A stretch of 64,000 nt of DNA from Prochlorococcus marinus CUG1438 (GTDB taxonomy: Bacteria; Cyanobacteriota; Cyanobacteriia; PCC-6307; Cyanobiaceae): positions 62,001 through 126,000 of the forward strand of contig JAEPLS010000002.1 of assembly GCA_017644325.1 (NCBI GenBank), read 5' to 3'. Below, in pieces: positions 8,244 through 9,751 of this stretch (within the stretch, counting starts at the first letter, position 1; each line of letters opens with the position of its first letter). A model generated the notes under the pieces. It ran no database searches and was not told the origin of the DNA. It was given only the letters and a program-made list of their open reading frames with translations. The translations under genes were made by a program, and so were the position numbers.

Positions 8244-8249
8244 TAGAAT
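8244..8249 (+). promoter_or_regulatory. Probable -10 box of the rpsB-tsf transcript
   Basis: TAGAAT at 8244-8249 resembles a sigma-70 -10 element. Transcription would start near 8256, just before the structured leader at 8269. No good -35 is seen, which is usual in this genome type. Weak call by position and match only. Confidence 0.35.
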
Positions 8250-8268
8250 AATTCAAACAAATTTCACA

Positions 8269-8332
8269 CATCTGACAGTTTCGGGTGAATTATTAATATT
8301 AATTCCCCGTCAGATGGAGGCTAACCCGAAAC
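8269..8332 (+). promoter_or_regulatory. Structured rpsB 5' leader with H-type pseudoknot
   Basis: Two perfect helices interleave. Bases 8269-8276 (CATCTGAC) pair with 8309-8316 (GTCAGATG). Bases 8278-8286 (GTTTCGGGT) lie inside that first loop and pair with 8324-8332 (ACCCGAAAC), outside it. The order A-B-A'-B' is a pseudoknot. A third hairpin, GAATTA 8287-8292 with TAATTC 8300-8305, can extend through GGG/CCC (8283-8285 with 8306-8308) and would then compete with helix B, offering a two-state switch. A GGAGG Shine-Dalgarno-like motif at 8316-8320 touches the end of helix A', 25 bases from the ATG. The position suggests autoregulation by ribosomal protein S2, which is inference. Confidence 0.65.
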
Positions 8333-8345
8333 CCTTTTTTAAATT

Positions 8346-9050
8346 ATGGCTGTTGTATCACTATCAGAAATGATGGAAGCAGGTGCTCATTTTGGGCATC
8401 AAACTAGACGTTGGAATCCCAAGATGTCTAAGTATATATATTGCGCGAGAAATGGAGTTCATATTATTGATCTTGTTAAAACAGCATTGTGTATGAACAA
8501 CGCGTATAAATGGACGAGAAACGCTGCAAAAAGCGGTAAACGTTTCCTATTTGTAGGCACAAAGAAACAAGCATCAGATGTAGTTGCTCAGGAAGCTACA
8601 CGATGCGGAGCTGCATATGTAAATCAAAGATGGCTAGGAGGGATGTTGACTAATTGGACAACAATGAAAGCTAGGATTGAAAGATTAAAGGATCTAGAAA
8701 GAATGGAAAGTAGTGGTTCTATAGCAATGAGACCTAAAAAAGAAGCCGCAGTATTAAGGAGAGAACTTGAAAGATTACAAAAATACTTAGGTGGACTTAA
8801 GGGTATGAGAAGATTACCAGATGTAGTTGTATTGGTTGATCAGAGAAGAGAATCTAATGCAGTATTAGAAGCTAGAAAATTAGATATCTCATTAGTATCA
8901 ATGTTGGATACAAATTGCGATCCAGATTTGTGTGAAGTCCCAATTCCTTGTAACGATGATGCCGTTAGATCAGTGCAACTTATTTTAGGAAGACTAGCAG
9001 ATGCCATAAATGAGGGTAGAAAGGGCTCTAATGCCGAAAGAAAAAATTAA
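8346..9050 (+). CDS. rpsB: 30S ribosomal protein S2
   Basis: A 234-residue ribosomal protein uS2, a late-assembling small-subunit protein next to S1 that is needed for translation initiation. The start [27 protein letters not shown] and internal motifs [22 protein letters not shown] and [12 protein letters not shown] are diagnostic. It is the first gene of the conserved rpsB-tsf pair and is preceded by the pseudoknot leader. The ATG at 8346 lacks a nearby Shine-Dalgarno sequence. Confidence 0.98.
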
Positions 9051-9094: not shown

Positions 9095-9751
9095 ATGGGA
9101 AACATTACAGCAAAACTTGTAAAAGATCTTAGAGACAAAACTGGCGCAGGAATGATGGACTGCAAAAAAGCACTTAACGAAACTGAAGGAAATCTAGATA
9201 AAGCTTTGGAATGGTTAAGAAAGAAAGGCATAGCTAGTGCTGAAAAGAAATCAGGAAGAGTAGCAGCCGAAGGGTCAATTGGTAGTTATATACATACTGG
9301 ATCAAGAGTTGGAGTTTTACTAGAGTTGAATTGTGAAACTGATTTCGTTGCTAGAGGTGATATATTTCAATCTCTGTTGAAGGATGTCTCAATGCAAGTA
9401 GCAGCATGCCCAAATGTTGAGTATGTATCAATTGATGAAATACCAGAAGATGTTGTTGAAAAAGAAAAGCAGATTGAAATGGGTAGGGATGATTTATCAG
9501 GCAAACCAGAACAAATTAAAGAAAAAATAGTTGAAGGGAGAATAGCAAAAAGACTTAATGAGCTTGTTTTGCTTTCACAACCCTACATTAAAGATAGTTC
9601 TCTAACAGTTGAGGATCTTGTTAAACAAGCCGCTGCAAAAATTGGGGAAAATATCAAAGTAAGACGTTTTACAAGATATACATTAGGTGAAGGTATCGAA
9701 AAAAATCAGATGGACTTTGCTGAAGAGGTCGCATCAATGCAAACAAACTAG
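9095..9751 (+). CDS. tsf: Translation elongation factor Ts
   Basis: Nucleotide exchange factor that regenerates EF-Tu-GTP. It has 218 residues, the short cyanobacterial form. The N-terminal UBA-like domain with [20 protein letters not shown] is followed by the core motif [13 protein letters not shown] (the TDFV contact with EF-Tu) and the C-terminal [19 protein letters not shown]. It follows rpsB by 44 bases, the near-universal order. Confidence 0.98.

Follow-up and report, generated by a model that had tools for sequence, protein, structure and literature searches.

A cyanobacterial form of the rpsB motif precedes rpsB-tsf in Prochlorococcus marinus and probably serves repression by ribosomal protein S2

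The rpsB-tsf locus and its leader

The window (the whole stretch of DNA analysed, 64,000 nt from Prochlorococcus marinus CUG1438) carries rpsB, encoding ribosomal protein S2, followed by an open frame that we take, from knowledge of such sequences, to encode elongation factor Ts (tsf) (Table 1). The S2 frame is identical or nearly so to frames in named Prochlorococcus records. Ahead of rpsB, two helices of 8 and 9 bp interlock in the order A-B-A'-B' without a single mismatch, just as an earlier note on this DNA had read them; they are called P1 and the pseudoknot below. In a third hairpin, GGG (8283-8285) and GAATTA (8287-8292) face TAATTC (8300-8305) and CCC (8306-8308), with T8286 bulged. 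Between the end of the pseudoknot and the rpsB ATG at 8346 lie 13 nt, and a GGAGG (8316-8320) touches P1 at a distance of 25 bases upstream of this codon.

The position of the hexamer TAGAAT makes a transcript start near 8256 probable, which would give a leader of about 90 nt, nearly all of it motif. Among relatives, TANNNT peaks 25-29 nt 5' of P1, in a count made without a shuffled control. The minimum free energy of the leader is -20.4 kcal/mol (z -2.77) for nested structures, the folding program being unable to draw pseudoknots.

Table 1. Features of the rpsB-tsf leader and the genes that follow it (positions in the window)
Feature	Position	Strand	Evidence
Promoter -10-like hexamer TAGAAT	8244-8249	+	Consensus match only
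CACA, conserved, immediately 5' of P1	8265-8268	+	Alignment; ACACA 5' of P1 in E. coli
P1 5' strand (earlier helix A), CATCTGAC	8269-8276	+	Two-sided changes at 8/8 pairs
Pseudoknot 5' strand (helix B), GTTTCGGGT	8278-8286	+	Two-sided changes at 4/9 pairs
P3 5' strand, GAATTA	8287-8292	+	Sequence pairing, alignment
P3 3' strand, TAATTC	8300-8305	+	Sequence pairing, alignment
CCC, possible partner of GGG 8283-8285 and hence possible competitor of the pseudoknot	8306-8308	+	C conserved in the family; folding prediction
P1 3' strand, GTCAGATG, 8 bp with 8269-8276	8309-8316	+	Pairing in sequence, covariation
Conserved GGAGG(C) and loop from P1 to pseudoknot; no Shine-Dalgarno role	8316-8323	+	Kept in relatives and E. 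coli
Pseudoknot 3' strand, ACCCGAAAC, 9 bp with 8278-8286	8324-8332	+	Pairing, relatives, covariation
Spacer up to the start codon; no G, no Shine-Dalgarno	8333-8345	+	Sequence, relatives
rpsB, ribosomal protein S2	8346-9050	+	Open frame, relatives
tsf, elongation factor Ts (presumed)	9095-9751	+	Open frame

A published motif below Rfam thresholds

Meyer et al. 2009 (PMC2704228) describe an 'rpsB motif' made of P1, a P2 and a P3 that both vary, and a pseudoknot linking the junction to a strand after P1. Cyanobacteria, in which P2 is lacking or very short, are listed among its carriers, and a pseudoknot of five base pairs is stated for groups other than Firmicutes. The window leader lies in the 5' UTR of rpsB, given the predicted transcript start, and has a long P1 (8 bp) capped by a junction, a P3 of 6 bp, no P2, and a 9-bp pseudoknot joining the junction to the 3' extension that follows P1. 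The leader is a cyanobacterial version of that motif, with which it shares its place upstream of rpsB, P1, P3, the pseudoknot from junction to 3' extension and an absent or very short P2; the motif and its occurrence in Cyanobacteria had already been reported.

Unlike in the motif as published, the pseudoknot in the leaders of the window's family spans 9 bp or more (195/195), with GUUUCGGGU as its 5' strand in every one of the 195, and no Shine-Dalgarno sequence follows it; the pseudoknot of other cyanobacteria is also longer than published, most often 7 bp (21/52). The GGGU of the 5' strand occurs in all 85 rows of the alignment described below.

The best Rfam match of the window leader is t44 (RF00127), at 27.0 bits and E 0.0004, which falls short of the gathering cut-off of 44. 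RF01815 ('rpsB', gathering cut-off 40 bits), presumably the motif of Meyer et al. to judge by its name, did not match the window up to E 10 and, under strict filters, reached its cut-off in none of 60 genomes of the class; ten of these had some match at E <= 1, and at least one such match (in genome G277) lies elsewhere than at rpsB. RF00127 was likewise found in none of 60 relatives at E <= 0.001 under strict filters, while among 14 control genomes it matched in E. coli and Thermotoga maritima. The match in T. maritima is a hint that the S2 leader may be distributed more widely. Among 20 chosen leaders, 11 had a match to RF01815 or t44 below threshold and none had one above it. Rfam annotation misses the leader in the cyanobacteria searched.

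The earlier note had guessed that the leader was new and had named an Rfam family as what might take that novelty away. Rfam supplies a related family, t44, below its threshold, and no match to RF01815; novelty is lost instead to the motif, pseudoknot and cyanobacterial carriers given in the 2009 paper (PMC2704228). A search of openly licensed papers found no experiment on the cyanobacterial leader and no study of it beyond that paper.

Distribution in cyanobacteria

Upstream rpsB DNA was read in 257 genomes or records. The layout is shown by 78 of the 80 close relatives taken from named records, by each of the 117 genomes of the window's family that were read (110 of the 139 with an rpsB match, namely 30 loci and 80 fetched with 29 unread, plus 7 further) and by all 52 genomes read elsewhere in the class. 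Thus, 247 of 249 records of the class have it, and the two misses (L052 and L060) are contigs that start inside or just after the leader. The kinship labels suggest that the class comprises the oxygenic cyanobacteria and that the rest of the phylum is non-oxygenic.

The 60 genomes outside the family consist of the 52 within the class and 8 outside it; among the latter, five lacked the layout and three were parsed without the conserved letters. Because the parser is lenient in this way, a covariance model, built without the pseudoknot, was relied on outside the class. In a phylum search with strict filters, this model gave one match each in 111 of 244 genomes, all 111 ending 2-14 nt upstream of the rpsB match, and none in the 127 genomes outside the class, as judged by list order. 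Six genomes within the class had no match in this search (G367, G229, G233, G311, G313 and G371); in G367 rpsB itself was likewise not found, and the loci of G233, G311 and G371 do fit the model when searched directly. Within the window's family the model matched in 192 of 201 genomes. One of the five outside-class genomes missed by the parser fits the model as well (L261, 21 bits, E 0.0001), and the stretch L261:315-395 is a probable version of the leader with a shorter pseudoknot.

In one genome of the window's family (G082) the leader is matched twice, on different contigs, each time just 5' of one of the genome's two rpsB matches. In the window's own genome, the sole other match of the model up to E 10 (15.5 bits, E 0.65) lacks P1 in the alignment and was taken as chance. 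In viral contigs, the strict motif pattern had no match at all. A loose pattern gave at least 120 stretches, and 58 of the 80 listed loci scanned had a model match at E <= 1, scores that are inflated because the loci were pre-selected by the motif core; the best among the viral matches listed (L313, 28.1 bits) sits within a long open frame. Another cyanobacterium of the same class has a glutamine riboswitch (RF01739, 43.3 bits, cut-off 35) upstream of rpsB, on the opposite strand (L214:390-446).

Covariation

The two GC-containing helices had been called unlikely by chance in DNA so rich in AT. Perfect interlocked helices of 8 and 9 bp within 91 nt are in fact common in such DNA, averaging 3.95 combinations in a simulated 64-kb strand (60 strands, 16 of them without any), and the window itself has further ones, so that improbability rests only on the GC pairs. 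When at least four GC pairs per helix are demanded, the leader is the sole such place in the window (the minus-strand match is simply the leader read in reverse complement), and such an interlock turns up in 1 of 300 simulated strands. The original statement therefore holds with the GC demand and fails without it. For the sequences compared here, the decisive evidence against chance is comparative, namely covariation and conservation.

For the covariation analysis, distinct leaders whose P3 region does not exceed 75 nt (214 in all, those with longer arms being left out) were thinned to 85; the window entered this alignment in place of L084. Over 17 pairs, 95.9% of the cells are paired. Two-sided changes occur in 197 cells and at 12 of the 17 pairs, including all eight of P1 and four of the nine of the pseudoknot. 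None of 500 shuffles, which do not preserve the relatedness of the leaders, equalled the observed paired fraction, two-sided changes or covariation score, and seven of the 500 equalled the number of further pair types. Sliding of the partner strands collapses both pairing and covariation values. The pseudoknot core GGGU/ACCC is invariant except for one G-U cell and, being fixed, gives no covariation; the base of P3 covaries. In L249 and L273 (family f19), the pair next to the core has changed from C-G to U-A. The covariation and the matches ahead of rpsB support the earlier reading of a pseudoknotted rpsB leader and show it to be conserved. In the same two leaders (L249:109-178 and L273:325-394), P1 is kept, the pseudoknot is shortened but compensated (UGGGU/ACCCA), and GGUUGU stands where GGAGG is otherwise common.

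Likeness to the E. coli leader and proposed function

A search of 9.7 kb with the cyanobacterial covariance model recovers the E. coli leader, with a score of 22.3 bits and E 4.4e-5. Like the window, E. coli has, upstream of rpsB and in the same order, ACACA, P1, GGGGU (which pairs with ACCCC), GUGGAGG and ACCCC. The E. coli leader differs in its longer inner arm, its pseudoknot of 5 bp, the 24 nt between pseudoknot and start, and a Shine-Dalgarno sequence (GAGG) lying in that interval. In E. coli, excess S2 acts through this leader, with the help of S1, to repress rpsB-tsf (PMC10931766; PMC3296737), S1 being required along with S2 and the ribosome binding site being no part of the operator (PMC10931766).

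The layout common to the two leaders makes S2 autoregulation likely, as the earlier note had proposed. This cyanobacterial rpsB motif probably allows free S2, likely with S1, to repress translation of rpsB-tsf; S2 as ligand and feedback repression as effect are both likely by analogy with E. coli.

The spacer between pseudoknot and start codon sets the window's family apart. A Shine-Dalgarno-like match (GGAG, GAGG or AGGA) after the pseudoknot occurs in 0 of 195 leaders of the family versus 52 of 52 in other cyanobacteria; a looser pattern gave 7/195 by also catching the pseudoknot strand ACCCGGAAC. The G content of the spacer is about 1% in the family genomes and 0.00 (rounded) in the named close relatives versus 21% in other cyanobacteria, and at least one G occurs in 17 of the 195 family spacers versus all 52 of the others.

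Repression could proceed as follows. The structure at the 5' end of the mRNA, made up of P1, the P3 arm, the pseudoknot and the conserved GGAGG loop, would be bound by free S2, likely with S1. The 9-bp pseudoknot stabilised in this way would, to judge by its geometry, block the loading of 30S subunits. The footprint of the 30S subunit covers a position 13 nt before the AUG, and because the pseudoknot ends there, a stabilised knot would occupy the landing site. Once ribosome assembly has consumed S2, the knot would open, perhaps aided by S1, and the nearly G-free spacer of the opened leader would accept a ribosome without a Shine-Dalgarno sequence; its low G content would suit an unstructured entry site served by S1. 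Direct blocking may nevertheless not be the route of repression, since the E. coli ribosome binding site lies outside the operator.

A possible competing pairing in the window's family

The earlier note had the third hairpin destroying the pseudoknot helix. The hairpin is present, but its upper six pairs amount to the known P3 arm and can form alongside the pseudoknot, so that only GGG/CCC competes. Position -10 (8306) is C in 161 of 161 distinct family leaders versus 21 of 52 other cyanobacteria, and position -9 is C in 153 of 161 versus 36 of 52. A two-state switch could be built on this pairing in picocyanobacteria: GGG would first pair with CC(C) at the foot of P3, so that the 3' strand and the start region stay open, and S2 or slow transcription would then shift GGG into the 9-bp pseudoknot and close the gene. 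Such a switch is possible but doubtful.

In its favour, besides the fixed C residues, folding without the 3' strand predicts GGG as paired (mean above 0.5) in all 161 family leaders, with a mean pairing of 0.98-0.99 versus 0.78-0.84 in shuffles. The computed cost of freeing GGG is about 6-7 kcal/mol and the gain from the pseudoknot helix about 13. A pseudoknot loop carries a penalty of several kcal/mol, and since this and the cost offset the gain, the two states could be close in energy.

Against the switch, shuffled intervening loops still pair GGG above 0.5 in 91-93% of cases. An argument from thermodynamics alone, for which 161/161 had looked strong, was dropped when this control showed most of the effect to be expected; the predicted folding exceeds the control modestly. 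Across the 85 rows, the three pairs in competition are formed in 49, 77 and 65 cases (failing in 36, 8 and 20) and show no two-sided change, although they cannot covary because GGG is fixed. The CC may instead be a protein contact. In other cyanobacteria the mean pairing of GGG (0.66) is below the shuffled level (0.76), and the switch is therefore not general. The switch as first suggested is supported in part only, by the GGG/CCC competition and the C fixed in the family, two-sided changes being absent and the predicted folding only modestly above the shuffled control. The competing state is possibly a refinement in the window's family and no property of the motif.

Other readings of the leader

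The conserved fold might bind a partner other than S2, such as S1 alone or the 30S subunit, in line with the need in E. coli for S1 together with S2 (PMC10931766). This is improbable: in the phylum search each matching genome has a single copy, placed ahead of rpsB, and the related leader of E. coli responds to S2 (PMC10931766).

Slightly less probable still is that GGAGG serves as a stand-by ribosome site with access governed by the fold, as suggested by its being the leader's sole Shine-Dalgarno-like stretch and by its adjoining P1. The exact sequence GGAGG lies between P1 and the 3' strand of the pseudoknot in 188 of 195 family leaders and also in 42 of 52 other cyanobacteria; all 52 have a further match after the pseudoknot, and E. 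coli has a GGAGG in addition to a separate Shine-Dalgarno sequence. Genes of the family, moreover, show little or no Shine-Dalgarno excess: a match precedes 21 of 135 starts, versus 16 of 135 in a control stretch, in a sample of ten 20-kb stretches from 5 genomes in which starts were taken as the longest ATG frames, and the signal is diluted because such calls misplace starts. The corresponding values are 30 of 108 starts versus 10 in the control for other cyanobacteria, and 3 of 52 long open frames versus 5 for the window. A role of GGAGG as a ribosome site was thus rejected, given its retention as a motif part in cyanobacteria and E. coli and the weak Shine-Dalgarno use of the family; with it goes the earlier reading of GGAGG as a distant Shine-Dalgarno sequence controlled by folding. 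A loss of the Shine-Dalgarno sequence peculiar to rpsB found no support, since the family genes sampled show little excess over the control.

Chance complementarity, to which the frequency of unfiltered interlocks in AT-rich DNA lends some colour, is rejected as next to impossible in view of covariation and class-wide conservation.

Significance

The preferred reading remains S2-dependent repression through a cyanobacterial rpsB motif. On the sequences read, the new detail is that the window's family combines a pseudoknot of 9 bp or more (195/195), the absence of a Shine-Dalgarno sequence after it, and an invariant C able to pair with GGG. It is conceivable, though unlikely and a little more so than the switch taken by itself, that the picocyanobacterial family rebuilt an ancestral S2 leader: the pseudoknot would have grown to 9 bp toward the start codon, a near-G-free spacer would have replaced the Shine-Dalgarno sequence, and the CC would have been fixed to pair with GGG, giving a two-state switch in which free S2 gates S1-dependent initiation without a Shine-Dalgarno sequence.

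The leader is a regulatory RNA that spans the cyanobacterial class, is missed there by Rfam thresholds and is tied to the S2 leader of E. coli. The layout common to cyanobacteria and E. coli suggests that this control by a ribosomal protein has been kept over distant phyla. The picocyanobacterial form may offer a route to ask how S2, the docking protein of S1, controls a gene that lacks a Shine-Dalgarno sequence.
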